Shown in pieces: positions 2,451 through 42,206 of a DNA stretch of 43,098 nt. Source of the DNA: a virus. How positions within the stretch are numbered: the first letter of the stretch is position 1; every line of letters starts with the position of its first letter. Made by a program: the position numbers and the translations under genes. Location: positions 1 through 43,098 of IMG/VR virus record IMGVR_UViG_3300037264_000808. The stretch is one strand, 5' to 3'. The notes beneath the pieces were generated by a model, which searched no databases, was not told where the DNA came from, and saw nothing but the letters and a program-made list of their open reading frames with translations.

Positions 2451-4019
2451 TTACCATCCCGGGTCAGTTCTCACTATCGAGGTTAAATCACTCTGTACCG
2501 CACCTCTGGGCGTCATTGTCTCTTTATTCAAAAACCCGCCAGCATTAGTCGCAGTCGCAGCAGTCATCCCCGACGGTGCTTGAACTGAATTCGATATATT
2601 TCTTGCCACATCTGATTTCACATCTTCGTTATCATCTGGAACATCCCCCGCACCTTGCGGTGGAGGCATTGTAGCAGCTTGTGGCTGCATATACGGTATC
2701 CACTGCATAATGTGTTCCAGCGTTTTATCAATATCATTATCTCCCAGCATTTCCAAAGCCATAGGAGGCGTAACCAATGGGAATGGAAGTTGCATTCTCT
2801 GGGTTATTTCTTGAAGCAAAATTAATCGGTCTTTCGGCAATGGGTCTGGAAAAGTAACTTGTGTCTCTAAAGCATTTTCGTTATTGCATTCTTCTTCAAA
2901 ATTAACTCCGTTTTTAATCCCATAAATCGTCAAAGCCATCTTATTAATCTTCGAAATCCCTGTTCCGAACGTCAGCATCTTTACTGCGCGTTGTTCCATC
3001 AAGGGCTGATATTGGACATGAAGCGCAACACCCGATGTATTCGAAACAGCTTGCTGCTTTCCTAACGTTGCTTCTGGCACCTGAGTTAATTCGTGCATTG
3101 ACTCTTTTAACATGCGCAGATATTCGACAGATGCATTCAAATCCGACTGCATCTGCAAGTTTTCTACTTTGGCGTCTTTGGGGAGTCCTGACCATAATTT
3201 GTTTGCTCCCTTCTCCAGCGATGTAGCCTTCGCGCCATAAACAACCGTAATCGGTGCTTGATGGTAATTAATAATATCTGAGATGTTCGTAGACTTCTCG
3301 TTATACTCGCGATTAAGGCCGATAAAATCATTAAGATCAGAGAGCCCATAAGTACCACCAGCAATAGGACGGTTCTTAATGTGAACAATCGGAATGAATC
3401 CCAAACCGTTATCCCACTCATAGCGTGTATCTCCGTCGAGAATAATAAATTTATCCCCAGTCAGAATTTCTGTGTATTTTCTGCGGGTTTTTTGACCCTT
3501 CAAGGTAGGAACTTCATACATATAAGAAATGCGGAAAGAGGTCATGACATCTTTATTATGCGGATGCCATTCAGGAAAGCAATGAGATGAATCCAAGATA
3601 ATCATTCGGACTCGTCCTTTCTTCAGCAAATTAAATTCATTGGGGTCTTCCCAACCCACCTTCACAAATGTGTCCCCAGAAACAGCACCCATTTGGCCGG
3701 CTTCCATTCCCCATAAAACTTGGTTGTTATCTTTCCATATCGTTTTCAGCGCGGGATTAATTATTTGTCGAGTTCTCTCATCTTTAATTACCCAATTGAA
3801 ACCCTTCCCAAAAAGAAAAGACACAGACTTATCCACAAATGCCCTTGCATAATTAAAGGTCATCTGAGGTTCGCCTTCTTCTCTCTTCCAGGCCCACTGA
3901 CGGCCTAAATAAAATTGCCAATAAGTTGAATAGCGTAATACGCGCTGTCGGTCTGTCTCGGACATCTCCAGACCGAGTGGGCCCTTATCAACCTCCTGGC
4001 TTGTTTTATTAAAAAGCAC
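2451..4019 (-). CDS. Portal protein
   Basis: 522 residues, a normal portal length. The N-terminal half has the features of SPP1-type or related portals: a short helical start, a WQFYLGRQWAW segment, NYARAFVDKSVSFLFGKGF near residues 55-75, and a helical HELTQVPEATLGK stretch near residue 315, where portal proteins carry their stem region. Portals form the dodecameric channel at one capsid vertex, through which terminase packages DNA. The gene lies downstream of terminase and upstream of scaffold and capsid genes, the standard order. The C-terminal about 90 residues are Pro/Ala-rich and probably disordered. Confidence 0.88.
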   Translation of the reverse strand: MLFNKTSQEVDKGPLGLEMSETDRQRVLRYSTYWQFYLGRQWAWKREEGEPQMTFNYARAFVDKSVSFLFGKGFNWVIKDERTRQIINPALKTIWKDNNQVLWGMEAGQMGAVSGDTFVKVGWEDPNEFNLLKKGRVRMIILDSSHCFPEWHPHNKDVMTSFRISYMYEVPTLKGQKTRRKYTEILTGDKFIILDGDTRYEWDNGLGFIPIVHIKNRPIAGGTYGLSDLNDFIGLNREYNEKSTNISDIINYHQAPITVVYGAKATSLEKGANKLWSGLPKDAKVENLQMQSDLNASVEYLRMLKESMHELTQVPEATLGKQQAVSNTSGVALHVQYQPLMEQRAVKMLTFGTGISKINKMALTIYGIKNGVNFEEECNNENALETQVTFPDPLPKDRLILLQEITQRMQLPFPLVTPPMALEMLGDNDIDKTLEHIMQWIPYMQPQAATMPPPQGAGDVPDDNEDVKSDVARNISNSVQAPSGMTAATATNAGGFLNKETMTPRGAVQSDLTSIVRTDPGW

Positions 4020-5916: not shown

Positions 5917-7428
5917 TTAACGACCATATGCCCCTGCGCTCATTTCCATCACCGGGATATCTTCTTCTCGAACAGCCCAGTTCGCTAATGCAGCACTATC
6001 GGGAAAATCGTCATGGGCATCTTTCTCGTCAGGATGAGCGCATACCAAATATTCTCCTTCATAGCGTTTTTCTAAATCCATCATCTGCTGAACAAACATT
6101 CTTTGGCGTCGTAATTTCTGCGCATTTCCAGTATTTGGAAATCGAACCCGTTCTCCGTACAAATCGTTCAAGAAATATTTATACAAATCAGATTTACTCG
6201 GGCGGGAGAATTTATAGGGAATGACATGAATACTGGGAAGAGAAGCAGTTAATCTATCTGCGATAGGATCACCAACACCAGTTGAATCTACGCACATCTT
6301 TTCGACATTATAATTAGCGAGAAAATCTCGAATCTGATAGAACTGACTTTCATAATCATCTCCGTACAATTCTAACCAGTTCAAAATTCTCTTGTAATAA
6401 AATCCCTCTGCAGTTACATGGTTATAATCTACTTCCATAATTGTCAGAACAGTTGAGTCAGTCGCTTTTGCTAAATCGAGTCCAGCTACTTGTTTACTAT
6501 TTCTGCGAACATCCACTATATCATACGTTTTTCCGCTGTAATCTTTGCCAAGTCTTTCCAATAAATCTGGAGCCATTGCCATTCCGCGTTCAAGAATCCA
6601 GTGCAAACGATAGCTCATGCGGAATTCATCCGAGTCATATCCCAGACGGTTCATTTCTTTTTCAATGTATTTTGCATAGAGGGGATTGTACTTCTGGGCT
6701 ATCTGATAATCATATTCGAAATGATTCTTTTTATTCTCGGAAAGAAGTCTCTTTTTATTTCGTTGAATCGCGTCGTAAAAATCTCCTTTTCGCGTCCAAG
6801 GAGTTCCGATTTTTACAATCGTCGCGTTAGTAGAAGCACCCATCGGATGAATGGATTTCCGCAATTTCGAGTTCGATATCTCTTGACTCTCTTCACAAAT
6901 AATTAAATGAAAAGTCTTTGATTCGATATGAGAATTATCTGACGCGCTCATACACATAATCATTGACCCATTATTTAATGCCACACAATTCCCATTATTA
7001 GAATCGAATCGGACTGACATCTGAGGGATAGAGAAGATTTGTTTGGCGAGTTCTGAATTCATCCGACCACGAACGCGGTCAAATGTCGTTTGTGATTGCT
7101 CTAAAATGGGAGCAAAAATACCAATCCACAAACCATTCTTGAATCGTCTCATGCGCTTATCAGGCTCGTATTGGGGAAGTCGCGCCATAAATGGGAGGAT
7201 AACAGCCATCCCTCCCGCAATCACAGATATCGCTTCCGTCTTCCCACTCTGCCGACTGAATAGCGCAGTAATTTCTTCACCATCATTTTGCACTATGCTC
7301 TCGATAACCCTATTGGCGAATTGAATCTGATAGGGATGAAATTTAATCCCTGAATAGGATTCGCAGAATTGCAAAACCTGATTCGTTATCTCTTTTAATG
7401 GGACCGGATTAAATGTCACTGTCGGCAT
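5917..7428 (-). CDS. terL: Terminase large subunit
   Basis: 503 residues; the packaging motor and headful or site-specific nuclease. The ATPase half has Walker A SRQSGKT (about residues 58-64) and Walker B LIICEE (175-180), with the catalytic glutamate after it. The RNase H-fold nuclease half shows GLDLA (D318), VDSTGVGD (D381) and HDDFPDS (about 472-478), which supply its metal-binding acids. The start ATG overlaps the end of a small gene by 20 bases. No small terminase subunit was recognised nearby; the two small genes just upstream are candidates only by position. Confidence 0.95.
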   Translation of the reverse strand: MPTVTFNPVPLKEITNQVLQFCESYSGIKFHPYQIQFANRVIESIVQNDGEEITALFSRQSGKTEAISVIAGGMAVILPFMARLPQYEPDKRMRRFKNGLWIGIFAPILEQSQTTFDRVRGRMNSELAKQIFSIPQMSVRFDSNNGNCVALNNGSMIMCMSASDNSHIESKTFHLIICEESQEISNSKLRKSIHPMGASTNATIVKIGTPWTRKGDFYDAIQRNKKRLLSENKKNHFEYDYQIAQKYNPLYAKYIEKEMNRLGYDSDEFRMSYRLHWILERGMAMAPDLLERLGKDYSGKTYDIVDVRRNSKQVAGLDLAKATDSTVLTIMEVDYNHVTAEGFYYKRILNWLELYGDDYESQFYQIRDFLANYNVEKMCVDSTGVGDPIADRLTASLPSIHVIPYKFSRPSKSDLYKYFLNDLYGERVRFPNTGNAQKLRRQRMFVQQMMDLEKRYEGEYLVCAHPDEKDAHDDFPDSAALANWAVREEDIPVMEMSAGAYGR

Positions 7429-16413: not shown

Positions 16414-16485
16414 TTGCGGGAGTGGGAATTGAACCCACCTGATCCTCCTTATGAGGGAGGCGAACAACCACTGTTCCATCCCGCG
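16414..16485 (-). tRNA. tRNA-Met (anticodon CAT), initiator-like
   Basis: A complete cloverleaf can be drawn. The acceptor stem has positions 2-7 paired and C1 opposite A72 unpaired. The D stem is GAAC/GTTC with a seven-base loop. The anticodon stem is CCTCC/GGAGG around CTCATAA, the variable loop has five bases, and the T arm is GTGGG-TTCAATT-CCCAC. C1xA72 and the A11-T24 pair are hallmarks of bacterial initiator tRNA, and the first ten bases match the familiar initiator start closely. The three G-C pairs next to the loop (29-31/39-41) typical of initiators are absent. CCA is not encoded. The 5' end abuts the stop codon of the gene at 16486. Confidence 0.92.
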
Positions 16486-25711: not shown

Positions 25712-27133
25712 CTACGCGTACACCTTTTGTCTATTGCCTTTTTGCTTCTTCAAGTTCATCACCTCGATAATTTCCAGCATCCTGTCTTTGTTCTTCACAT
25801 TTTTAACGAGGTGAAGTGTGTCGCTAATGGCACCTATCTGCGAATGACTAAACCACTTCCCATAACCCAATATGACTGAATGATTCTTTATTTCTCCTCG
25901 CTCTTCATTCACCTTCTTAGCATCAATACTAGACTCTCCATCCGTCAGCGTTAATATCTGGCAGTTCTTCAAGTCCAATTCGACCTTATCGAGCTTGTCT
26001 TTCACCTTCGCTTTCTTAATGTCGGATACTGCTTTCAAGACAGCTTTCTGAATGTCTGTTCCTCCACCTGGGAATCTCATGTGCAATAATTTCCTACACA
26101 ATTCCTGCGCTTCTTCTTTGGTAGAAGCCGACATTAATTCATGCGGGTCATCTTCAAACATCCGCATATGATAATGGTCTCCAGCCGTTGCAACTCGTCG
26201 CAATAAAGACAGGGCAATACTCATTGCACACACAGCCCTATCTCCCTGCATTGAGCCCGACACATCCATCAAGATATAAACCAACTGCCTTTTATCTTGC
26301 CGAATCATAAACTCTCGGCACATCAATTCCTTCTTCGCATACTTCATGTAGAAGGTATCAGACGGAAGAGCCAATTGACCTGGCAATAACTTGAACAGGT
26401 CTTTGCTGTCCCTTATCTTGTGGATGTCCACTGAGTTATCAGGAAATGGACTGGGATTCCAAATGCCCATCTTGGAGAACGTCATTGCAAAGTCCAATTC
26501 CTGACTTATCAATAACGCCTGCACCATATACGGGTCCCACGTCTGTGTAAGACTTTCAAACGCCTTCTCCAATCCAACTGAACCACTTCCACCCATCGGC
26601 ATTGGTTGATTTTCCTGGCTGTCATCGTCTTGACCATTCCCCGGAGCCGGCTGCGGTGGAGGGTCGAACATCCCTTCCAACAACGGGTCGTTCAATAACT
26701 GAAGAACTTTTCTGCCAGTATCAATGAGCCTCTCGAACTCATCCATCCCCTGTTGCTGTCGTCCACCTCCTTGCTGTCTTTGCTTTCTATCCAACTCGGC
26801 CATGATTTCCCACATACGGTCAAAGAACTGTGGAATCTCTGCCTGATTTCTTGGGTAATAATCACTCTCAACTAACTCATGCAAGAAATGAGAATATCTA
26901 CTGCGTCTACTTAACTCTGTGTATATCTCGCTGACCTTTCCTCTCTTGTAATTCTCCAACACCTTATCGAATATGACGTTAGGCTTTATAAGAGATTCCG
27001 GGTCTTCACACACGCGCCAGAAGTCTTTAAGAATATCCTCATCAACAAAGCCGAATCTGTCCTTAACTTTATCGAACATATCCTGCAGTTGTGGATGAAA
27101 ATGATAATCCACTAAGCCGCTTGTAATCCTCAT
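25712..27133 (-). CDS. VWA-domain protein, partner of the MoxR ATPase (ViaA/CoxE-like)
   Basis: 473 residues. The N-terminal about 270 residues are helical with a Q/G/P-rich linker near 120-190. The C-terminal domain is a von Willebrand A fold: ILMDVSGSM (DxSxS, about 290-294), a FPGGGTD threonine loop and LTDGES, together the MIDAS metal site. This arrangement, helical part then VWA, encoded directly downstream of a MoxR AAA+ ATPase, is that of RavA-ViaA and related pairs that remodel other proteins or load metals. The phage target is unknown. The ribosome site is GGAGG. Confidence 0.8.
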   Translation of the reverse strand: MRITSGLVDYHFHPQLQDMFDKVKDRFGFVDEDILKDFWRVCEDPESLIKPNVIFDKVLENYKRGKVSEIYTELSRRSRYSHFLHELVESDYYPRNQAEIPQFFDRMWEIMAELDRKQRQQGGGRQQQGMDEFERLIDTGRKVLQLLNDPLLEGMFDPPPQPAPGNGQDDDSQENQPMPMGGSGSVGLEKAFESLTQTWDPYMVQALLISQELDFAMTFSKMGIWNPSPFPDNSVDIHKIRDSKDLFKLLPGQLALPSDTFYMKYAKKELMCREFMIRQDKRQLVYILMDVSGSMQGDRAVCAMSIALSLLRRVATAGDHYHMRMFEDDPHELMSASTKEEAQELCRKLLHMRFPGGGTDIQKAVLKAVSDIKKAKVKDKLDKVELDLKNCQILTLTDGESSIDAKKVNEERGEIKNHSVILGYGKWFSHSQIGAISDTLHLVKNVKNKDRMLEIIEVMNLKKQKGNRQKVYA

Positions 27134-27142
27134 CGGAACCTC

Positions 27143-28546
27143 CTAGATATTATTTTCTTCTTCCGCGTCCATGTCTGTATTTAATTCGTGCGCTACTGTC
27201 GGATGGATGATTCCTGCCAACACACCTTTGGCGAATGGGTCACCTACTTGTTGCCCATCTGCGGAATCAAGCACCAATCCTGCTTTCACCATACCCGGCT
27301 CACCAACCTGTTGCTTGATTGCTTCAATGTTTGTTCTCACCTGCTCCATCATTTTGCTCGCTTCCTGTTTCGAGTTATCAACCTCGAATTTTCCAGCCGC
27401 GTCGTTTATTTTGTCAATAACCTCTTGGAGTTTCCGAATCTTCATCACCCCATCGAATTCCTTTTTCTTATGGAACTTCGTGGTCATCACCTCTTCAACT
27501 TCTTTCAGTAATAACGACAGCGTGTTATTTTCTCCAACTGATTTCTTGCGGTCACTGATTTGCTTGTAGACAATCGCTTCCCACACCTGTTGGTCTTTGT
27601 GGTCATTCCCCATGCAGATTGAATACTTCAGCAAGGGTATGTCCTCCAATAACACCATCGTCCGTCCATGAACAACAGCCACCGACTTCAACAGCTTTAA
27701 CATCTTCACCGCTGTTCTATCACTGACGTATTTCGTGGTCTGTCTCACATACTCTTTCAATACTGAGTCATATAAACCCAATACCGTTTCGCTTACAGTC
27801 ACGGATTCGGATTTAATGAACCTCACCAGTTTTTTCAGCGTATCCAATGCCAACTGGTCCTCTGCATCCAGTTCAACATGACCGTTGGAATTAAACACCA
27901 AGGCATTTTTATACATCCTCATTCTGCCTGTTGCTGTTCCAATGGGAGACACATCACTCTTGAATAATATGCGGTCAAGAATGGCTTCCGTTGATTCCTC
28001 TTCCCGCGAATAATTACTCGTGAGAATGGCTGTATGCAACGGACATTTTTCCTTCTGCGTATTTCGCGTAAATGTCCTCTCATTCAGGATTTCCAGTAAT
28101 GACCGAAGCAACACATCCGAGCCATCAAAGAACTCGTCGATGAAAGCGAAGTTACTGTCCACGATGGTGTTCTTCGTGTTGTGGACAATCTCTCCTTCTT
28201 CTCGCAATTTCTTCACGTTGATTGGCCCGAACAAATAATCTTCAGACATGAACTTCGACAACTGAACCTCAAAGTTGGTGGCTCCTGTGATATTTGAAAA
28301 CACAGACCTCCCAAGTTGAGATTTCGCCGTACCGGGCTTTCCTTTTAACAGGATATGCTCTTGAGTTAAGAGCGCGTACTTAATCTGCTCCAACTCATCG
28401 TCGCGGTCTATGAACCGCTTCTTCAACAACCCAAAGAAGTTATTGAACTTTTCTACCGACTCTCTTACAGATGACGGTAAGTCTTCGCCTATTGGAGTGC
28501 CGGACCTTGTTTTCTTCACTTCTTTGATGCTTATTTTGATTCCCAT
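27143..28546 (-). CDS. MoxR/RavA-type AAA+ ATPase
   Basis: 467 residues. Walker A is GKPGTAKS (69-76), Walker B FAFIDEFF (133-140), sensor 1 TSN (176-178) and an arginine finger sits in LDRILFK (about 192). The YLFGPINVKKL segment and the order of motifs mark the MoxR branch. The C-terminal about 150 residues form a charged helical extension. These ATPases act as chaperones that, with a VWA partner, alter protein complexes or insert metal cofactors. The VWA gene follows ten bases on. The start is supported by AAAGGAG. Confidence 0.85.
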   Translation of the reverse strand: MGIKISIKEVKKTRSGTPIGEDLPSSVRESVEKFNNFFGLLKKRFIDRDDELEQIKYALLTQEHILLKGKPGTAKSQLGRSVFSNITGATNFEVQLSKFMSEDYLFGPINVKKLREEGEIVHNTKNTIVDSNFAFIDEFFDGSDVLLRSLLEILNERTFTRNTQKEKCPLHTAILTSNYSREEESTEAILDRILFKSDVSPIGTATGRMRMYKNALVFNSNGHVELDAEDQLALDTLKKLVRFIKSESVTVSETVLGLYDSVLKEYVRQTTKYVSDRTAVKMLKLLKSVAVVHGRTMVLLEDIPLLKYSICMGNDHKDQQVWEAIVYKQISDRKKSVGENNTLSLLLKEVEEVMTTKFHKKKEFDGVMKIRKLQEVIDKINDAAGKFEVDNSKQEASKMMEQVRTNIEAIKQQVGEPGMVKAGLVLDSADGQQVGDPFAKGVLAGIIHPTVAHELNTDMDAEEENNI

Positions 28547-28901
28547 TTTTACTCTCCTTTATTAACTTTATTCTGATGACACGCTTCTTCTCCATAGGAA
28601 CTACTTTACTTCGCTCCTCTGCTTCTGCTTGTCTTTCTCTTAATAGACGCTCTCGTATTGCCACGTCATATAAGATGACCTGATAATCGAGTGGGACTAA
28701 ACAAGTCCCATCCGATCCATATTGACTCACCCACTTAACTTCAACCTCAAGGTCAAGCCTTTGACTGAGCCAAACTGCTGTTCCGTATTTCGTCATATAC
28801 CGAAGTTTGGGCTTCATGTTTACGACTGGAACCCAATTCTTAACGAGCTTTATCTTGATTTTCTTATGCCCGTTTCTTGATGGCTTTATTTTTATCTTCA
28901 T
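28440..28901 (-). CDS. Basic protein of unknown function
   Basis: 153 residues, very basic, with K-I-K-I-K repeats at the start and an R-rich end; a beta-type core lies in between. Its last 36 codons overlap the MoxR gene start by 107 bases in another frame, so the true end may be irrelevant to function or the gene may have been lengthened by loss of its stop. Overlaps the previous gene by 38 bases. No family recognised. Confidence 0.5.
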   Translation of the reverse strand: MKIKIKPSRNGHKKIKIKLVKNWVPVVNMKPKLRYMTKYGTAVWLSQRLDLEVEVKWVSQYGSDGTCLVPLDYQVILYDVAIRERLLRERQAEAEERSKVVPMEKKRVIRIKLIKESKNGNQNKHQRSEENKVRHSNRRRLTVICKRVGRKVQ

Positions 28902-30219: not shown

Positions 30220-30407
30220 TCACAGACGCATTTACCGTCCATGAAATAATCGCAATCACCAAAACAACTTTTACATAGACCCTTTGATTCCTCGTCTATC
30301 TTCTTTTGCGTGTTATCTCTGAGCTTCTGAACTTCTTCATCCGTTATGCTTTCAGGTATCAACATCACCTTTCGCCAATTCTTTATTTGCTCCGGCGTCA
30401 TATTCAT
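30036..30407 (-). CDS. Cys-rich small protein overlapping the zinc ribbon
   Basis: 123 residues from ATG 30407, which overlaps the ligase stop (TAATG). The first half is helical and polar (TPEQIKNWRKVM); around residues 53-68 it has C-K-S-C-F-G-D-C...C-V-C-D-C-H, strongly cysteine-rich and likely metal-binding. The C-terminal about 60 residues overlap the ribbon gene in another frame and look unlike a domain, so the functional part may end near residue 65. A single-base change could have split one longer protein here. Confidence 0.5.
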   Translation of the reverse strand: MNMTPEQIKNWRKVMLIPESITDEEVQKLRDNTQKKIDEESKGLCKSCFGDCDYFMDGKCVCDCHLNGTLKMLLLALIARQSRIPKLGMGIPPFTVPTEKGMSVIVTIVGKLFSLKKWLAGHG

Positions 30408-31387
30408 TAGGCATACCTCACTTTTTGTTCGCCAAACACATCGTCCCACTTACAGTCCCGCGCATTCTTATCGAATCGAAAGCACACAAACCTCGGATGA
30501 CGAATGGCGTCTTTAAGAACCTCTTGGCCAGTTATTGTTATGACCTTCCCAAGATGTTTGTCCGGGTCCTTGCTAATCTTCTCCCGAATTAAATCGCTCA
30601 TCCCGCTTGTCTTTCCAATCTCTACCAACACCCGATTTTTATATGCACCGTATCGAATCGCACCAATCCACCCGTTCGTAAAGAATCTATTAACGGAGAC
30701 AGTTCCATCGACCTTTGTTGTCATGCGTTCAGGGTCATCGTAACCCGTTATAACCACATCCCAATCACTCTCTTTTTTTAATTTCATCCACCACCCTTTG
30801 TTGCGTGAATCCTGCCAGTAAGGACTTTCTTTGTGTTTGAGAATGATTCCTTCCAACCCGTTTGAAGTCGCATACTGAACCAACTTTTCTTTATCTTTAT
30901 ACGAACGGATTCTTTCGACGTGTTCGTTGTTCCATTCCTCAACAACTTTTTTGCGATATGCTCTCCGTTCTCGATAAGGCAATTTCTGAATGTCTTGGCC
31001 TTTATAAAAGAGAACATCAAACAACGCATAGACGACATACCCTTGCTCTTTTTGACGTTCAATCGCAAGTGCAGGACTCGCCCCCATAATACTCGTCACT
31101 ACATTCGACGACGATTTCTCTCCACCAACTACGATCTCCCCATCAGCAATGGTTCCTAATAAATGCGGAACCGGCTTATTTAAGTGGGGAAGATTTCCTG
31201 TCTTCTCAACGGGCTTTCCATCTTTAACAGAATTACGCCGGCTGTAAAAGTGAACCCCGTCTTTATCAAAGTGAGCCACATAACGCGACCCATCTAATTT
31301 TAATTCGCCTACCCAATCAGGGTCTTTCATAGCCCGCTTAATGTCTATCTCTGACCCCCTTGCTGCGAGCATTGGCTTAATCTCCAT
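30407..31387 (-). CDS. ATP-dependent DNA ligase
   Basis: 326 residues. Motif I is KLDGSR (lysine about 30, which carries the AMP). Downstream are a motif III-like VVYALFDVLFYKG, EGIILKH (motif IV) and KLKKE (motif V). The C-terminal part has an OB-fold-like beta domain. It seals DNA nicks using ATP and probably acts in replication or repair. It has a GGAGGCGTT site and is a typical small phage ligase without extra domains. Confidence 0.9.
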   Translation of the reverse strand: MEIKPMLAARGSEIDIKRAMKDPDWVGELKLDGSRYVAHFDKDGVHFYSRRNSVKDGKPVEKTGNLPHLNKPVPHLLGTIADGEIVVGGEKSSSNVVTSIMGASPALAIERQKEQGYVVYALFDVLFYKGQDIQKLPYRERRAYRKKVVEEWNNEHVERIRSYKDKEKLVQYATSNGLEGIILKHKESPYWQDSRNKGWWMKLKKESDWDVVITGYDDPERMTTKVDGTVSVNRFFTNGWIGAIRYGAYKNRVLVEIGKTSGMSDLIREKISKDPDKHLGKVITITGQEVLKDAIRHPRFVCFRFDKNARDCKWDDVFGEQKVRYA

Positions 31388-31513: not shown

Positions 31514-32293
31514 TTATGCTTTAACTTTGCGTTCTCTAATTGCATTGACGACTTCTTTCTTACCACCGTCTTTCCAGATGACTTCGTACTTTCCACCTTT
31601 CAAGACTTGGCTGACAGTAGCCTTATAGAACTTCTTATCTTTCGGCCATTCCGCCATGACTTTATCGCCTGCTTTGAAGGTTGGAGCTTCTTCTCCCTCA
31701 TCTTCATCCTCATCATCATCGTCGTCCTCATCAACTTCTTTAGCCGCCTCTTGCTCATTGGTGGCCTTCTTGATGATTTCGGCGCGGAGTTCCTTCTCCT
31801 TCATTTTGGAAGGTTTCTTGATGCCGATTTTTTCAGCGATTTCAACAAGGCCTTCCTTGTCCATCGCGTCTAACTTATCGAGGTCAAGTTCGATTTCGTC
31901 CTCATCGGATTTCTCGGATTTTTCATCCTCGTCCTCGTCTTCATCGTCCTCGTCTTCCTCTTCGTCCTCGTCTTCCGCTTCTTCTTTTTTACCAGGACCT
32001 TTAGACTTCGGAGTTTCTTCCTCATCGTCATCATCTTCCTCAACTTCTTTTTCAGCTTCCTTCTCGGCAACATTTGCCTTCAAGATTTCCGCCAACTTAA
32101 CAAGCTCATTGGAGAGCCCGACAAGTATTGGGAAGTCCTGACTATCTACTTCTTGTTGCTTTTCCTGTTTCGGCATTTTCACTTCCTCCTTAGTTTTAAC
32201 AACTGCTTTTTTTGCTTTATGCTGTTTTCGGACAGAACGCTTTCCTTTCGGACCACGTTTCTTTCCTTTATCAGCTCTCGGTTTTCGAGCCAT
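31514..32293 (-). CDS. Acidic protein with SAP/Rho-N-like and Tudor-like domains
   Basis: 259 residues in four parts: a basic start (about 1-45, K/R-rich), a helical segment, a long acidic tract of D and E (about 85-135), and two small folds. MDKEGLVEIAEKIGIKKPSK resembles a SAP or Rho N-terminal-like nucleic-acid helix pair. FKAGDKVMAEWPKDKKFYKA (about 208-227) and the beta strands after it resemble a Tudor-like barrel, which binds methylated or basic proteins, or nucleic acid. The mix of basic, acidic and Tudor-like parts suggests interaction with DNA-bound proteins. A terminator follows. Confidence 0.65.
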   Translation of the reverse strand: MARKPRADKGKKRGPKGKRSVRKQHKAKKAVVKTKEEVKMPKQEKQQEVDSQDFPILVGLSNELVKLAEILKANVAEKEAEKEVEEDDDDEEETPKSKGPGKKEEAEDEDEEEDEDDEDEDEDEKSEKSDEDEIELDLDKLDAMDKEGLVEIAEKIGIKKPSKMKEKELRAEIIKKATNEQEAAKEVDEDDDDDEDEDEGEEAPTFKAGDKVMAEWPKDKKFYKATVSQVLKGGKYEVIWKDGGKKEVVNAIRERKVKA

Positions 32294-35942: not shown

Positions 35943-37643
35943 TTACATCTTGCGAGCTTTCATGCGTTCGAGAAAGCTCAAATTCTCGGTCTTGGGACCA
36001 CTTATTATGGGTGCTTGTGGCGTTTCTTTTGCGTTTTGGGGCTCTTTTTCATCGAAATCGCTGTCTATATCATCTTGCGATGTTTCCGCGTCTTGTGGCT
36101 CATTCTGGGGCGTTTCTTCGGGCTCTTGTGATGCGCTCTCAGGCTCTTGTGGCTCTTCTTCAGCCAATTCCGCGTCTTTCACATTGCTCGGGGTCACATT
36201 CACAATATTTTTAGGCCCAAATATGCGTTCTAAAATCTGTGAACCTTCAATCGTTATCTTATCTTTTTGTGGAAGAATGTCCTGATATAATTCGGCCAAA
36301 AGCTTGTGATAGTTAATCAATTCCTGAAATTGAGCTGACACATTCTTGTCTGCTACCCCGCCGTCTAATTGCTCAAAATAGAGATTGCGATTGGCTCTTG
36401 TCTCAAGCGTTTCGATCATCTCTTTGATTTTGCGCACACAATCATGCGGATTCGTTGTGGGAAATCGTTTGAAAGTCGGAATCAGCGTACACATGGAGCC
36501 GGCTGCGAACTTCGGGCATGTGTTCTTTGCGTAACAATTATTGCACACAAGACTCGTTTCGATGTGCTGTTGAGAGTGCAAATCCATCGCCATTGACCTG
36601 TCTGCATCATCCAATAAGGGCGGTCTATTGCGTCCCACAGCCAATCCAGTCTCGGGTATTTCCATCCCATTTGATGCGATTTCAGTCTTTGGAGGGACTA
36701 CCTCTTCAGGCTCCACCTGGTCGGAAGTGTCAGAAACCGTATCAGGTTTCTTCTTTTGCGCTTCAGGCAATAGTTCTTTCACAGTCATGTGAGAGTCTTT
36801 CTTTTCCCACCATTGCTGGCTCTTTGTGCGTTCGTTGATGTATTTCTCGCATTCCAACCATGCGATAACATTGGCCTTTCCAACCTCATAATTATCTTCA
36901 GCTTCAATCTTCTTCCAGTCACATCCAATGCGCTCGAAATAAGTCTTATAGCGTTTGCGGTATTGCTTGTCATCTTTGCGCAGTTCAATCAGCGTCCTCT
37001 TCCACCAAATAAACAGACAGCCATATTGCTCACCAGTCAGCCATCGTGTCGAGTCCACAGTATAAAATGGAGCCTTCATTAATATATCAGGTTTGGTCAT
37101 CGCGAACCCATGCACCTTCGCGCCATATTTGCTTGCAATCTTTATAAATTGTCTAAAGCGTTCACCAGGGATATCATCAGGCAGACCAACCATCTTGTGT
37201 CGCTTGCACATATCTTCCCAGCCATCGTAACCTCGTTCTTTATGCCACACATAGATAACTGGTATGCCTGTTTCTTTCTCAAAAGGCTCAAACAATCGCG
37301 TCTGTAATTTTTTAACAAGCGCGAGTGATGTGCTTTCTTCAATGTCCAATTCAACCACAGAGAATATCTTGTCTTTGTTCTTGAGAGCCCAAGCCAAATA
37401 TTCCTCACAGTATTTTGTGTAAAAGCGTTCTGGATTGCCTCCACTCACATCACCTTGTTGAATTGTATGCGCACCAGAGTCAATCATGAATTTCATGTCA
37501 GGTGTCGCGAGTTCAAAAGCCACAGGATTCTGTATGCGCTTCTGTCTAATGTAATAATAACTCAACAGAATATTCTTGGCCCCACCAGCCAAAATCTTCT
37601 TGATGTGTTCGTTATTTTCGCCACCAGAGAAAAACATCAACAT
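35943..37643 (-). CDS. dpdA: DpdA-like DNA 7-deazaguanine transglycosylase with C-terminal Cys-cluster extension
   Basis: 566 residues. The N-terminal about 230 residues carry TGT/DpdA signatures: MIDSGAHT (about 55-60), VELDIEE (97-103) holding a catalytic-type acid, HGFAMTKPDIL (178-188) and VDSTRWLTG (196-204). DpdA enzymes exchange guanine in DNA for preQ0 or related bases. A proline-rich linker leads to C-x2-C-x5-C-x8-C (about 367-385), perhaps zinc or Fe-S, then helix and an acidic tail rich in E-P-Q. Start ATG 37643 shares its first base with the preceding stop (TGATG). Last gene of the que operon, followed by a terminator. Confidence 0.8.
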   Translation of the reverse strand: MLMFFSGGENNEHIKKILAGGAKNILLSYYYIRQKRIQNPVAFELATPDMKFMIDSGAHTIQQGDVSGGNPERFYTKYCEEYLAWALKNKDKIFSVVELDIEESTSLALVKKLQTRLFEPFEKETGIPVIYVWHKERGYDGWEDMCKRHKMVGLPDDIPGERFRQFIKIASKYGAKVHGFAMTKPDILMKAPFYTVDSTRWLTGEQYGCLFIWWKRTLIELRKDDKQYRKRYKTYFERIGCDWKKIEAEDNYEVGKANVIAWLECEKYINERTKSQQWWEKKDSHMTVKELLPEAQKKKPDTVSDTSDQVEPEEVVPPKTEIASNGMEIPETGLAVGRNRPPLLDDADRSMAMDLHSQQHIETSLVCNNCYAKNTCPKFAAGSMCTLIPTFKRFPTTNPHDCVRKIKEMIETLETRANRNLYFEQLDGGVADKNVSAQFQELINYHKLLAELYQDILPQKDKITIEGSQILERIFGPKNIVNVTPSNVKDAELAEEEPQEPESASQEPEETPQNEPQDAETSQDDIDSDFDEKEPQNAKETPQAPIISGPKTENLSFLERMKARKM

Positions 37644-37843
37644 CACAGCACCTCAAACACAAATTCTTCTTTCTTGTTTAATATCGACAGAAAATACTCA
37701 GAAGGAGATGAGCGCACAGTATGAATAGACACAATGCGTTCTCCTTTCTTCCAGAAGTTTTCGTTCACATCTTGGTCAATGAACATCTTATAACCTCTGC
37801 GCTCTAATTCAGCGATGTTTGCTTTTGTTCTTTCGTCGCCCAT
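37643..37843 (-). CDS. Small protein of unknown function between PRTase and DpdA
   Basis: 66 residues from ATG 37843, one base after the PRTase stop. Mixed alpha/beta with basic and aromatic residues (ERRGYKMFIDQDVNENFWKK). It overlaps the dpdA start. An accessory role to its neighbours is only inferred from coupling. Confidence 0.55.
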   Translation of the reverse strand: MGDERTKANIAELERRGYKMFIDQDVNENFWKKGERIVSIHTVRSSPSEYFLSILNKKEEFVFEVL

Positions 37844-37844
37844 A

Positions 37845-38135
37845 TTATTTATATTTGTCGTTAATTTCCCAAGGGAATTGCACCCATTCACTTATCTGCT
37901 CGCGTTGTTTATCTATCAATGCCCAGAATGGCTTGCCATATATTTTATCGCATTGAGCTTTCGTTGAGCCAGTATCCAATATGTCATCAACAATCACATC
38001 AGCTTCTTCCCATGTGTCTACAGCTCTACCAGTCATTCCAGCCACAACAGCTCCACCTCTAGGAATGCCATAAAGCTTTCCTTCAGGCGCGTTCTTTAAT
38101 CGTTCAAAAACCTCAGCCCATTTCACAATCTTCAT
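37845..38135 (-). CDS. Minimal phosphoribosyltransferase
   Basis: 96 residues from ATG 38135 (GGAGG six bases upstream). VIVDDILDTGST (about 47-58) is the PRPP-binding signature of type I PRTases, and YGIPRGGAVVA before it is the usual loop. At 96 residues it is much shorter than typical PRTases, which exceed 150, so it may be a stripped form or a binding protein. Sitting between QueE and DpdA it could handle a base or nucleotide in the 7-deazaguanine path; this is inference. Confidence 0.75.
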   Translation of the reverse strand: MKIVKWAEVFERLKNAPEGKLYGIPRGGAVVAGMTGRAVDTWEEADVIVDDILDTGSTKAQCDKIYGKPFWALIDKQREQISEWVQFPWEINDKYK

Positions 38136-38145
38136 AGAAGCCTCC

Positions 38146-38358
38146 TCATTGCACAATGATTCGTGTCCCATTGTAATGCCCAATCTCGTTTGGCAGAACC
38201 AACACATCATAGGGATATAAATTAACAGGCCTGAATCCAGGTTCTCGTCGGATTATCAGGCTCATGTTCTCGCTGATATAGCGAACAGGGCTATTCTTTA
38301 TATCGTATGTTGGTTTCGGCATTGGAGGCTTGTATGGAAACTCAGGCATCCTTGGCAT
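38146..38358 (-). CDS. Small proline-rich-start protein
   Basis: 70 residues. A P-rich, basic start (PRMPEFPYKPPMPKP) then a beta-type body (YDVLVLPNEIGHYNGTRIIV). It overlaps the next small gene by 17 bases. Function unknown. Confidence 0.55.
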   Translation of the reverse strand: MPRMPEFPYKPPMPKPTYDIKNSPVRYISENMSLIIRREPGFRPVNLYPYDVLVLPNEIGHYNGTRIIVQ

Positions 38359-38503
38359 TATCTTTATCCTTCTTAAATATATTCATCAAGACTTCTCTCA
38401 GTAAATCTATCCCACCTTCGCGTGTAATCTTTGAGAATTGCAATTGAAATCTACCAATGCGAATCGTTATTATATTCTGCGATTCAGTCACTATTTCACT
38501 CAT
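38342..38503 (-). CDS. Small basic protein of unknown function
   Basis: 53 residues from ATG 38503, which overlaps the queE stop (ATGA). Contains an amphipathic core (IITIRIGRFQLQFSKI) and a helix ending in basic residues. It may be an accessory of the operon; nothing more can be said. Confidence 0.55.
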   Translation of the reverse strand: MSEIVTESQNIITIRIGRFQLQFSKITREGGIDLLREVLMNIFKKDKDNAKDA

Positions 38504-39093
38504 CGTAATCCCCAAAATTTATGTTGCTGCACAGACAATCGCCATGTGGGATTCTGAAGAACAAGGCCAACACAATAATCAAGCGTCTTTCTATCCAATC
38601 CATCTGCGCCAAATGCAGGACTGATATAAAAGTAATCAGCTTTAATCATTGTCTTCGGTATGCTCTGGCCATGTGCGCGTACATAGCGGACCTCATTGGC
38701 TTTGGTAACCTTAAGCGTGTGTTCAGCGGTCTTCGGAGAGACACAGACCCAATCAAGTCCTTCAGGGAGGGCAATTGTGCCATTGGTTTCAATGGCGAGA
38801 TAGTATCCATCTCGTTTGAGACGGTTGATGAGGACATCATCCAGTTGTAATCCTGGTTCTCCTCCTGTGAAGATGACGTTGTGGCAGTACTCGAAGTGTT
38901 TGAGTTCGGCGCACAAGTCGTCCAATAAGTAATCCCGTCCTGATATGAATTCAGTATCACAATCAAATCCCTCCTTCTCTTTCACACAGCGCAAGTTGCA
39001 GTTCGAAAACCGAATGAAGATGTCAGCAGTTCCAGCTCTGGCACCTTCACCCTGTATCGAATAGAAAATTTCATTGATGCGATATTTCTTCAA
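38500..39093 (-). CDS. queE: QueE, 7-carboxy-7-deazaguanine synthase (radical SAM)
   Basis: 197 residues from TTG 39093 (an in-frame stop lies directly upstream; GGGAG nearby). The opening YSIQGEGARAGTADIFIRF is characteristic of QueE. The iron-sulphur cysteines are C-x3-C-x8-C (C32, C36, C45) rather than the canonical C-x3-C-x2-C, with an extra K-E-K-E-G-F loop, and FTGGEP follows. It makes CDG from the pterin that QueD produces. Length is normal for QueE. Coupled by overlaps on both sides. Confidence 0.88.
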   Translation of the reverse strand: MKKYRINEIFYSIQGEGARAGTADIFIRFSNCNLRCVKEKEGFDCDTEFISGRDYLLDDLCAELKHFEYCHNVIFTGGEPGLQLDDVLINRLKRDGYYLAIETNGTIALPEGLDWVCVSPKTAEHTLKVTKANEVRYVRAHGQSIPKTMIKADYFYISPAFGADGLDRKTLDYCVGLVLQNPTWRLSVQQHKFWGLR

Positions 39094-39203
39094 TCAGTCA
39101 ATCTCCCAAAAATGAATCCAATAATGCCACCAATAATAGCGGCCTTGAATATATCGGATTCAATTACCTCTCTGCATATGCGAAAGAACTCTTCTGAGAT
39201 CAT
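39090..39203 (-). CDS. 37-residue membrane peptide
   Basis: Starts at ATG 39203, overlapping the VWA stop by four bases (ATGA), and ends at the queE start. A charged beginning (EEFFRICREVIES) is followed by one hydrophobic segment (AAIIGGIIGFIFGRL). It could anchor a partner at the membrane. Function unknown. Confidence 0.5.
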   Translation of the reverse strand: MISEEFFRICREVIESDIFKAAIIGGIIGFIFGRLTD

Positions 39204-39853
39204 TTGGAACTGGATGAAGATGTTGCTTCCACAGCTTCATCGCGGTCATGCTGCGAATAAGCCATGTTCACCACATCACCTGAGCGATACATCGCCAAGT
39301 TATGAGAAGTCGCGCTAAATGAATTCTTCACACCAACAGCAGTCGCAGAGAAGTTCATCGCATTCGCTGTACTAATCCCCAAGCTGTCTGCTTCTTTCAA
39401 TGCGTCTTGATTCGCGCCCAAGAAAACAAACTGCCATTGATATTTCTCTGATTGCTGCTTGATAAGTTCATTGATGCGAGCCTTTTTATATTCTTTCGAT
39501 GAGTTCTCTTCTCCGTCGGTAATAATCACAAACACAACCTTGCTCGGTCTATCGTGTTCAGGCATCTTATCGAGGCGTTCTCCAGTCTCAACAATGGCTT
39601 TACCAATAGCATCCAAGAGTGCAGTTGCTCCTCGTGGTTGAAACACCAATGAAGGCACATCTTTGATATTAATTGCGCGATGGACAAATTCGTATTCAGT
39701 ATCGAATTGCACCAATGTGAAATTAGCCGCACCAGAAGCTTTCTTCTGGTCATCTACGAATTTATTGAATCCACCAATCGTGTCGTTTATTACTGTGGCC
39801 ATAGAACCACTTCTATCCAATACAACTGTGATGTCTGTTAAGTCTTGTCTCAT
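39200..39853 (-). CDS. VWA-domain protein in the que operon
   Basis: 217 residues from ATG 39853 (ATGA overlap with the HNH gene). The domain starts near the N-terminus: ITVVLDRSGSM (DxSxS), a G-A-T-A-L-L-D threonine loop near residue 75 and ITDGEEN are the MIDAS elements. After the domain comes a basic region, then a Ser-rich tail. VWA proteins typically mediate metal-dependent protein contacts. Its position among 7-deazaguanine genes is unexpected; it could organise the pathway or be an independent cargo gene. Confidence 0.8.
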   Translation of the reverse strand: MRQDLTDITVVLDRSGSMATVINDTIGGFNKFVDDQKKASGAANFTLVQFDTEYEFVHRAINIKDVPSLVFQPRGATALLDAIGKAIVETGERLDKMPEHDRPSKVVFVIITDGEENSSKEYKKARINELIKQQSEKYQWQFVFLGANQDALKEADSLGISTANAMNFSATAVGVKNSFSATSHNLAMYRSGDVVNMAYSQHDRDEAVEATSSSSSK

Positions 39854-40221
39854 TTCGCTGCCTCCTCTTGTTTCTTTCCAAATATCTGTTTCAATTCTTG
39901 TGAGGTTAATTTGGAAGTCCAATGATTATTGCCACAGATGCGTCCTTTCTTTGCAGCATCCCTCATGTTATCTGAACGAGTACCTATCCAAAGATGTGAT
40001 GGGCGTACACATGAAGGATTGTCACAGCGATGACACACATCCATTCCTTTTGGTTTCGCTCCACAAAAGAGTCGATAAGTAAAAACATGTGCCAATATTT
40101 TATGTGTATGTGTTATGCGAAATTCTCCATACCCATTATATGTGCGTGATCCAAGCCATACCCAACATCGACCATGAAAATCGACTTTAGCCCAGAATCT
40201 TTTAAGGATTGCTCTTTTCAC
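39850..40221 (-). CDS. HNH endonuclease (free-standing), GTG start
   Basis: 123 residues from GTG 40221 (AGGAGG about ten bases upstream, inside queD). Typical start FWAKVDFHGRCWVW and a YGEFRI strand precede the HNH core VCHRCDNPSCVRPSHLWIGT with conserved His, Cys pair and Asn. It would cut DNA near its own insertion site. It overlaps queD by 20 bases and the VWA gene by four. Confidence 0.85.
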   Translation of the reverse strand: MKRAILKRFWAKVDFHGRCWVWLGSRTYNGYGEFRITHTHKILAHVFTYRLFCGAKPKGMDVCHRCDNPSCVRPSHLWIGTRSDNMRDAAKKGRICGNNHWTSKLTSQELKQIFGKKQEEAAK

Positions 40222-40603
40222 CAGCAGTTTCCTCCTGTTGCATCTCCCAACGAACTTTATTATTGGGAGTTTCCCATATCTCCACAGCCCAACACACAGG
40301 TCTATTCATCTCCAAGTCCAGCTTCTCTTGCGTGTAGAATGCCAAGATGCGAGCGAAGTTCTCAGCAGTCGGCTGCAAATCTTTGAACTCATCCATTTTA
40401 TTAAGATTCTGGTGATCGAACTTATTAACAATTTCTTTTATTGCGGTGAAGTCCACAATCATCCCGAACTCATTAATCTGTTCTGCCAGAATAAATACCT
40501 TGATGCGCCATCTATGCCCATGCTGTCCATTGCATTTCGATGGGTATGGCAGCTTAAGAAAATGTCCAGCGTCTATTTCATCTTCAACTTCAGCATAAAA
40601 CAT
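40202..40603 (-). CDS. queD: QueD, 6-carboxytetrahydropterin synthase
   Basis: 133 residues, normal for QueD. Zinc ligands are H14 and HGH (H28, H30). The catalytic Cys (C24) is in C-N-G-Q-H-G-H, and the G-M-I-V-D-F, D-H-Q-N-L-N and P-T-A-E-N-F-A motifs follow, with E residues at VEIWET. It converts dihydroneopterin triphosphate into carboxytetrahydropterin. FolE, the step before, is not in the window. Follows queC by three bases. Confidence 0.9.
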   Translation of the reverse strand: MFYAEVEDEIDAGHFLKLPYPSKCNGQHGHRWRIKVFILAEQINEFGMIVDFTAIKEIVNKFDHQNLNKMDEFKDLQPTAENFARILAFYTQEKLDLEMNRPVCWAVEIWETPNNKVRWEMQQEETAGEKSNP

Positions 40604-40606
40604 AAT

Positions 40607-41287
40607 TCATCTCCTATAATTAATTGGGTCTGTCGCGTGATTAATACAGAAAGCTTCCAGTCGCTCTTGGCATGAAGCACATCTTCCACATGCAGGATAA
40701 GTGCCTTCATAGCATGTGTGCGTCAAATCATAGGGCACACCAAGCTTAATTCCCAGCTTCACAATCGCACTCTTCTTCATATTAATAAAGGGCGCGTGTA
40801 TTGTGATATTGCGCTCATTCCCCCACCTCATCGCGGATTGAAATGGCTTTACAAATGTGTCTCTGCAATCAGGATAAATCGCGTAATCATTCGAGTGAGC
40901 CCCATAAAACACATCAATTATATCTCTGCTCAATCCCACACCAACAGCAATTGACAACATAATCGCGTTTCTATTGGGAACAATGGTGAGCTTTTGATTC
41001 TTGTGCGTGTAATGTTCATGAGGAATAGCCTTTCTCTTATCTGTGAGGTGGCTATTTAATTTGAGGGATGTCAAATCAATTACTTGATGCGTAATCTTCC
41101 CATTCACATCATTGAAATGCTTGACCAATTTCTTTGCGCAAGTAATCTCTCGTCGATGTCTCTGACCATAATCAAACGTAATGGCGTGAATATGATAGTT
41201 CTTGTCGTATAAATCAGCGAGTAAAGTTGCGCTATCCAATCCACCCGAGAGTATCAGGGTACAGGTTTTCGTCGAGGTTTTGGGCAT
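40607..41287 (-). CDS. queC: QueC, preQ0 synthase
   Basis: 226 residues. SGGLDS (14-19) is the ATP-binding loop of this PP-loop family, FDYGQRHRRE the next conserved motif, and C-Y-E-G-T-Y-P-A-C-G-R-C-A-S-C near the end holds the zinc. It turns CDG into preQ0 with ATP and ammonia. It is a single-domain QueC with no amidotransferase fusion (Gat-QueC), so it is not set up to make archaeosine-type bases. It overlaps queF by 56 bases; GGAGG lies ten bases before its ATG. Confidence 0.92.
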   Translation of the reverse strand: MPKTSTKTCTLILSGGLDSATLLADLYDKNYHIHAITFDYGQRHRREITCAKKLVKHFNDVNGKITHQVIDLTSLKLNSHLTDKRKAIPHEHYTHKNQKLTIVPNRNAIMLSIAVGVGLSRDIIDVFYGAHSNDYAIYPDCRDTFVKPFQSAMRWGNERNITIHAPFINMKKSAIVKLGIKLGVPYDLTHTCYEGTYPACGRCASCQERLEAFCINHATDPINYRR

Positions 41288-41699
41288 TGTTTAAGTCCTC
41301 CTGGTTTCTAAGTGCTATGACTCTTTCTATAATTCCACCGCGCATATTGAATTCACCACGAACGCGAATAGAATAGGGCTTCATCACATCAAATAAATCG
41401 CTGCATACCTGATTAACCACTTCTTCTTGAAACATGTCTTTATCGCGAAATTTAACCAAGTATTCTTTAAGAGCTTTCGTTTCAACAATCCATTTCGTCG
41501 GAATGTAATCAATCAATAATTTCCCAAAGTCAGGAGCTTTTGTGAGTGGACAGAATGTAGATACCTCTGTGCATTCCAATGAAATGCGAAAAGGTTTATC
41601 GACCGTATTCTCTAAGAGAGTCAAGTCTTTCTTAAAATCCAAGTCATAAATCTCTACCTTCTTATTTCCCAATGCTTCATCCATCGTTTGATAGGGCAT
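41232..41699 (-). CDS. queF: QueF, preQ0 reductase (YkvM type)
   Basis: 155 residues, single-domain (Bacillus YkvM type). The catalytic Cys is in TFCPLTKAPDFG (C50), with the conserved Asp at D57. VETKALKEYLVKF is the QueF motif that binds NADPH, and MRGGI follows. It reduces preQ0 to preQ1 with NADPH. Its presence beside DpdA implies the phage can make preQ1, rather than stopping at preQ0, for DNA or for another use. Starts four bases after the YkgJ-like gene. Confidence 0.9.
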   Translation of the reverse strand: MPYQTMDEALGNKKVEIYDLDFKKDLTLLENTVDKPFRISLECTEVSTFCPLTKAPDFGKLLIDYIPTKWIVETKALKEYLVKFRDKDMFQEEVVNQVCSDLFDVMKPYSIRVRGEFNMRGGIIERVIALRNQEDLNNAQNLDENLYPDTLGWIG

Positions 41700-41702
41700 A
41701 TG

Positions 41703-42206
41703 TCACTCCTTTGTAGACTCGTAATCATTGAAATAGGCGGGAATTAAATTGAACTCAGTCTTCCACACCTCCCAACATATCTTGTTCATATCAACTGCGT
41801 CTTTCCATAATTTAGGGAACACACCGAATGCTCGATGCCACAATTCTTTCGTGCTTTTGAATCCTTCAAATGTCAGATAAGGAACCCCAGAACATCTCAA
41901 GCAAATCCACAGCCCAACAAACAATCCATCCTTGATGCATGGGAAGTATGGATAGGACATGCAATCAATTGGTCGTCGCTCATATATCGTGCATCCCAAT
42001 CCCACCCCATTCGGTCCAGCTTTGAAACAATCAGGACATGCTTTTGGCGCGTCATATTCAGGCACTCTATCACCAAAGAAGTTCGTGCTATTGAATTCGC
42101 GCTGGACAAATGTGCAGCAAGGTTTAGGGCAAACAGTACACCTATCCTCGCTGAACAAATTGGCCTGTTTATAATCTTGAAAGACTTCGAGTATCTTCTT
42201 GTCCAT
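41703..42206 (-). CDS. YkgJ-like cysteine-cluster protein
   Basis: 167 residues. C-T-V-C-P-K-P-C-C near the start, C-P-D-C and later single Cys (CTIYERRPIDCMSYPYFPC) match YkgJ-type proteins, which bind zinc or an iron cluster through conserved Cys. Family function is unknown, with roles in metal handling suggested. Overlaps SpoVS by one base (TAATG) and precedes queF by three bases. It could help mature QueE's iron-sulphur cluster; this is inference. Confidence 0.75.
   Translation of the reverse strand: MDKKILEVFQDYKQANLFSEDRCTVCPKPCCTFVQREFNSTNFFGDRVPEYDAPKACPDCFKAGPNGVGLGCTIYERRPIDCMSYPYFPCIKDGLFVGLWICLRCSGVPYLTFEGFKSTKELWHRAFGVFPKLWKDAVDMNKICWEVWKTEFNLIPAYFNDYESTKE

Follow-up and report, generated by a model that had tools for sequence, protein, structure and literature searches.

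The virus record IMGVR_UViG_3300037264_000808 (termed the window, i.e. the whole 43,098-base stretch of DNA analysed) carries two adjacent genes, which encode a MoxR-type AAA+ ATPase and a VWA partner protein. A virus-borne MoxR-VWA pair is an already known kind of system, and the window presents a new, divergent case of it. The pair may act as a remodeller driven by ATP, with the VWA protein as its MIDAS adaptor, and its client would belong to phage DNA replication, recombination or repair. A probability of about 45% is assigned to this joint claim; the chaperone mechanism is its better supported half, and the DNA-metabolism client is drawn from genomic context only.

The two genes and their motifs are as follows:

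27143..28546 (-): MoxR-type AAA+ ATPase (moxR), 467 aa; AAA+ core at about residues 36–204, lid at 263–325, variable C-terminal region at 330–467
28554..28560 (-): moxR ribosome-binding site AAAGGAG, 7 nt before the moxR ATG
28319..28342 (-): Walker A GKPGTAKS, residues 69–76; K75 invariant in 140/140 sequences
28133..28150 (-): Walker B FAFIDE, residues 133–138; E138 invariant in 140/140
28013..28015 (-): Sensor 1 Asn178, 140/140
27971..27973 (-): Arg192 of an LDR motif, putative arginine finger (role assigned from AAA+ families), 140/140
27716..27718 (-): Sensor 2 Arg277 of an SDR motif, 140/140
25712..27133 (-): VWA partner (vwa), 473 aa; helical N-terminal part at about residues 1–160, low-complexity linker at about 160–200, VWA domain at about 280–460
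27139..27144 (-): vwa ribosome-binding site AGGAGG, overlapping the moxR stop codon
26252..26266 (-): MIDAS DxSxS motif DVSGS, residues 290–294, read from the sequence
26057..26059 (-): MIDAS Thr359; T in 44/45
25940..25942 (-): MIDAS Asp398 in TDG; D in 44/45

The moxR gene is transcribed first and vwa lies 9 nt downstream of it. The 5′ end of moxR has a 107-nt overlap with the upstream open reading frame. As judged from the sequence, moxR and vwa are two intact open reading frames that should be separately translatable, each with its own Shine-Dalgarno signal. An earlier note had described a full MoxR ATPase and a VWA partner at positions 25712–28546, and its coordinates, chain lengths and domain calls are exact; the strand, which it leaves unstated, is minus. 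Both frames match profiles across hundreds of residues, and the two genes keep this order in dozens of viral contigs that are unrelated to one another; the pair is therefore not a product of chance.

Domain searches place the upstream protein in the MoxR family of AAA+ ATPases. Pfam matches are bpMoxR (3e-39; 134.5 bits with a cut-off of 27), AAA_5 (2e-17) and AAA_lid_8 (7e-9), and the five key residues listed above are all present. Their invariance is based on an alignment of 140 MoxR relatives. The second protein is a VWA (MIDAS) partner protein by Pfam (VWA_2, 2e-8; VWA, 1e-5; both exceed the cut-off), by predicted fold and by its MIDAS residues. The AlphaFold2 model has a mean pLDDT of 70, with a confident VWA domain and weakly predicted N-terminal helices and linker; a Foldseek search with this model returned VWA/integrin I domains and the MDN1 MIDAS domain. 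MIDAS residues D290, S292, S294, T359 and D398 are all present in the window and are conserved in 43–44 of 45 viral partners. Disrupted active sites, which the earlier note named as a possible refutation, were thus not found among the relatives, and the idea of a silent remnant is rejected, as the open reading frames, start signals and active sites are intact.

The window itself displays genes of a tailed phage:

97-1101: major head protein of tailed-phage type, with 49% identity to those of Streptomyces phages of about 113 kb, e.g. LuckySocke and BRock
2451-4019: portal
5917-7428: large terminase
30407..31387 (-): ATP-dependent DNA ligase, upstream of the pair and on the same strand

With capsid, portal and terminase genes on the same contig as two adjacent, co-directional genes separated by 9 nt, the pair is virus-encoded, and the earlier proposal that a phage carries it holds. 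Because of the resemblance of the head protein to those of the larger Streptomyces phages, the window is probably only part of a larger genome. Almost every gene in it is on the minus strand. The genes around the pair, head genes included, have a single direction, so strand does not separate an early from a late transcript class here. RuvC-like resolvase, polynucleotide kinase and RNase H families are found among the window genes. Promoter and terminator scans of the window gave fewer sites than shuffled sequences did.

Several other loci of the window may be recorded. A tRNA-Met gene is present at 16414-16485 (-). The 259-aa protein encoded at 31514-32293 (-), adjoining the DNA ligase, has Tudor-like (SGF29) and Rho_N-like matches, which is unusual in a phage. 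Genes of the 7-deazaguanine pathway occupy 35943-42206 (-), namely a queuine tRNA-ribosyltransferase-like gene (phrog_887; its product is possibly DpdA-like), QueE-like, QueC, GTP cyclohydrolase and a QueD-like family. This gene set suggests a predicted deazaguanine DNA modification. Inside the cluster, at 39200-39922 (-), is a second, stand-alone VWA protein of 240 aa (phrog_7371, 1e-65; TerF-like). Halovirus HVTV-1 shows a comparable deazaguanine set upstream of its own AAA-VWA pair. A general tie between the pair and 7-deazaguanine DNA modification was rejected: QueC is present in the window and in HVTV-1 but in only 4/29 pair-bearing records. A tie to the ATP ligase is only partial (7/29 pair-bearing records).

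The earlier note termed the pair RavA-ViaA style. This is correct as a likeness: no solved structure is closer to the window MoxR than RavA (profile E 1e-96, across core and lid), and the gene order and the VWA MIDAS correspond. In E. coli RavA-ViaA the MoxR gene is likewise followed by the VWA gene in one operon, the AAA+ core and lid can be aligned over their full length, and the MIDAS VWA domain is in the C-terminal half. The label does not stand for membership. The window MoxR scores 91.1 bits against the RavA equivalog NF010054, far below the cut-off of 681, and its alignment reaches no further than position 302 of the 498 in the profile, short of the triple-helix/LARA part. The VWA protein scores 25.7 bits against the ViaA equivalog NF008230 (cut-off 500), in the VWA region only, and its N-terminus is dissimilar to that of ViaA. 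By sequence comparison, neither window protein belongs to RavA or ViaA.

In trees made with FastTree and IQ-TREE the window groups with three viral contigs, L008, L064 and L065 (the split has ultrafast bootstrap values of 97–100), and is separate from the RavA clade, from a bpMoxR clade of Bacteroidota and others, and from the large tailed-phage group. Phage-specificity, raised in the earlier note, thus applies to this small clade and within the sequences sampled, in which cellular loci were capped at 80.

A profile-guided scan gave 60 viral contigs with relatives of the pair. After removal of duplicates and bicaudaviruses, 45 non-redundant tailed-virus loci remain. In 44 of these, vwa follows moxR on the same strand, in most cases at a distance of no more than 200 nt, and the one exception is a locus cut by the contig end. 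Nine loci have another gene between the two. The distance matrices of MoxR and VWA are correlated (r = 0.81; 0/2000 permutations). This parallel divergence fits co-inheritance of the two genes, and shared phage ancestry may contribute to it, at least in part. Reverse transcriptase genes, possibly of retroelement or abortive-infection types, are found near MoxR-VWA in L006, L029 and L043. MoxR matches in the record “Campylobacter phage A11a” and in Salmonella/Escherichia records were rejected as phage genes, as they are host ravA-viaA DNA where checked (A11a). The A11a record (L004, MG065691.1) has an E. coli-like ravA-viaA with its chromosomal neighbours and appears to be contaminated with host DNA.

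Scans with single proteins gave no close viral relatives of the window proteins, and subfamily scans gave only the L008 contig. What is detectable in common between the window and L008 is MoxR (48%), VWA (27%), DNA ligase (35%) and one weak match only. In L008 the ATP-dependent DNA ligase is upstream of moxR-vwa, in the same order as in the window; the genes downstream of the pair are not common to the two.

Two other members of the clade may be used to show the gene setting. In L065 the pair comes after genes for a DnaB-type helicase and a Sak4-type AAA_24 ATPase, an unassigned open reading frame and a weakly primase-like one (E 0.005), and in L064 a DnaB-type helicase and a Sak4-type AAA_24 gene precede it. 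Of 148 genes that flank the pair in other viruses, those assigned to a known family mostly encode exonucleases, RecU-like resolvases, helicases, primases or polymerases. Among 134 control genes from distant parts of like contigs, head and virion families appear as well. The tally is small and is no more than suggestive of a DNA-metabolism setting. Portal-like genes are found nearby on the opposite strand in L017, L062 and L067.

A third gene accompanies many of the relatives. By neighbour clustering, DUF6744 (Pfam PF20529, ~300 aa) is found with the pair in 32/45 tailed-virus loci. When Actinomycetota and Myxococcota genomes were searched with DUF6744 alone, without MoxR, 35 places were found, and in 27 of these the fetched stretch also contains moxR or vwa of the present type; of the remaining eight, most are cut short, broken or at the end of a contig. 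When the phage collection was searched by tblastn with four DUF6744 queries, the only matches were in Moorella phage MTATph1, where DUF6744 occurs together with the MoxR-VWA pair, and in halovirus records of the HVTV-1/HCTV group. In HVTV-1 the VWA and AAA genes are next but one to each other, and its DUF6744 was first seen by predicted fold and then confirmed by profile (E 8e-22). The association belongs to the window's relatives and not to the window. Neither Pfam PF20529 nor a profile made here detects DUF6744 in the window or in the L008 contig, and hhalign values there are under 6% (positive control HVTV1_25, 97.7%). The gene may be in the missing part of the genome, may have been replaced, or may be unneeded in this lineage.

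The DUF6744 fold gave no match in the PDB, a single-protein scan gave no relatives among viral contigs, and the clear fold matches are only to viral proteins without assigned function. VIA-align matches of the helical part to CorA and ribosome recycling factor have middling Z scores, 9.4 at the highest, and are not trusted as a guide to function. DUF6744 is not named in the literature searched, and its association with the pair is apparently undescribed there. The cellular DUF6744-MoxR-VWA clusters of Myxococcota and similar ones of Actinomycetota (L109, L110, L132, L173, L179–L196, L218–L220) group with phage sequences where they are placed in the tree. Their identification as prophages was rejected, as a non-exhaustive search of ten genomes gave no TerL-type match near the clusters. 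One such cluster adjoins an XRE-ImmA-like gene pair, as seen by eye.

By analogy with RavA-ViaA, CbbQO and ATV p618/p892, MoxR would form an ATP-hydrolysing ring on which the VWA protein docks as an adaptor, and ATP hydrolysis would alter the conformation or assembly state of a client. The divergent N-terminal part of the VWA protein, together with a Mg2+-dependent MIDAS face, may grip this client. The likeliest client would be one of the phage's own proteins for replicating, recombining or repairing its DNA, since the pair sits with genes of this sort and not with those of the virion.

Against such a client stands ATV, the sole viral pair with experiments in the literature found, which acts on virion tails (PMC4124505). 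There, VWA protein p892 stimulates the ATPase of p618, and p618, itself part of the virion, binds both p892 and tail proteins; a role in tail development is assigned to the two (PMC4124505). A virion-assembly chaperone, in which MoxR-VWA remodels tail or head proteins in particle maturation, was also proposed for the pair of group 2.2 jumbo phages (PMC7824862), and the single gene direction around the window pair is consistent with it. This role is nevertheless rather doubtful for the window. The pair is ~20 kb away from the terminase, portal and capsid genes, and in relatives it is beside replication and recombination genes. ATV p618/p892 and the SMV1 homologues of bicaudaviruses resemble the window pair in being a virus-borne MoxR followed directly by VWA and in the low-complexity linker of the VWA protein, but they come from archaeal spindle viruses, form a separate lineage with a known role in tail development, and are larger, the partners much larger. 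Remodelling of a host respiratory, decarboxylase or membrane complex to the benefit of the phage, as with E. coli RavA-ViaA, would be in line with the structural closeness to RavA, and the described RavA-ViaA targets are host metabolic complexes (PMC3893208, PMC10585395). It is unlikely, as the window pair falls outside RavA/ViaA, in a clade that is virus-only in this sample.

Among the roles offered in the earlier note, protein-complex remodelling is the best, while metal loading and defence gained no positive support. A defence or counter-defence module related to MoxR-vWA ternary systems is improbable. The window MoxR does have the bpMoxR domain, a family named after the MoxR-vWA-beta-propeller conflict systems, and their GxxxTAKS P-loop; these systems, however, have a beta-propeller partner, and the window is outside their clade. 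Five scanned flanking proteins, each <155 aa, contain no beta-propeller or effector domain, PADLOC models gave no match better than E 0.02, and the lack of shared downstream genes in L008 also speaks against a module of this kind. Metal insertion of the cobalt-chelatase type (CobS-CobT or ChlI-ChlD), e.g. in B12 supply for ribonucleotide reductase, is very improbable. NCBIfam includes CobS and CobT models, and none is among the matches to the window pair down to E 1. A weak BchD-ChlD match (E 8e-7; 28 bits with a cut-off of 500) points towards this role. A ribonucleotide reductase gene is near the pair in MTATph1, but none is among the families listed for the window genes. Cobalt chelation was proposed for the CobST of haloviruses, and Druskaviridae were published as carriers of CobS/CobT (PMC8651126). 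The CobS-CobT-type pairs of haloviruses, cyanophages and group 2.2 jumbo phages are also an AAA+ MoxR-like ATPase with a VWA partner in tailed viruses, but they represent a different MoxR subfamily, and the HVTV-1 proteins are not matched by the profile built for this analysis.

Published counterparts in the same kind of genome are the tailed-phage pairs of Aphanizomenon phage CL131 (gp147/146), Moorella phage MTATph1 (CDS115/114) and Bacillus phage 0305phi8-36 (orf66/63, annotated as a MoxR-type pair in 2007; PMC2147016), all with MoxR and VWA together. Similar pairs were reported in Hardycor1 (PMC7911831) and in further viruses. The CL131 and MTATph1 pairs, the two compared, have the same motifs as the window, but their MoxR has only 22–25% identity to it and is on a different tree branch, and many relatives add DUF6744.

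Remodelling of DNA-metabolism proteins, the reading preferred for the window, might extend to tailed viruses at large. As a tentative and rather doubtful generalisation, these would have a dedicated MoxR-VWA machine, usually with DUF6744, that remodels replication/recombination complexes (a “replisome chaperone”, distinct from virion-assembly and cobalt-chelation roles), and the window lineage would have lost or replaced its third partner or would encode it elsewhere.

MoxR-VWA pairs are conserved and widely distributed among viruses, yet the literature found gives a role based on experiment only for that of archaeal ATV. For tailed-virus pairs the roles in print, tail assembly and cobalt chelation, are extrapolations, and the genomic evidence presented here points to DNA metabolism as a third. 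DUF6744 is a candidate partner, being beside the pair in viruses, Myxococcota and Actinomycetota and, by profile and predicted fold, present in haloviruses with CobS/CobT-type pairs. DUF6744-MoxR-VWA is thus a three-protein system concrete enough to be tested. Should the client prove to be a replication complex, the MoxR chaperones would gain a new class of target.
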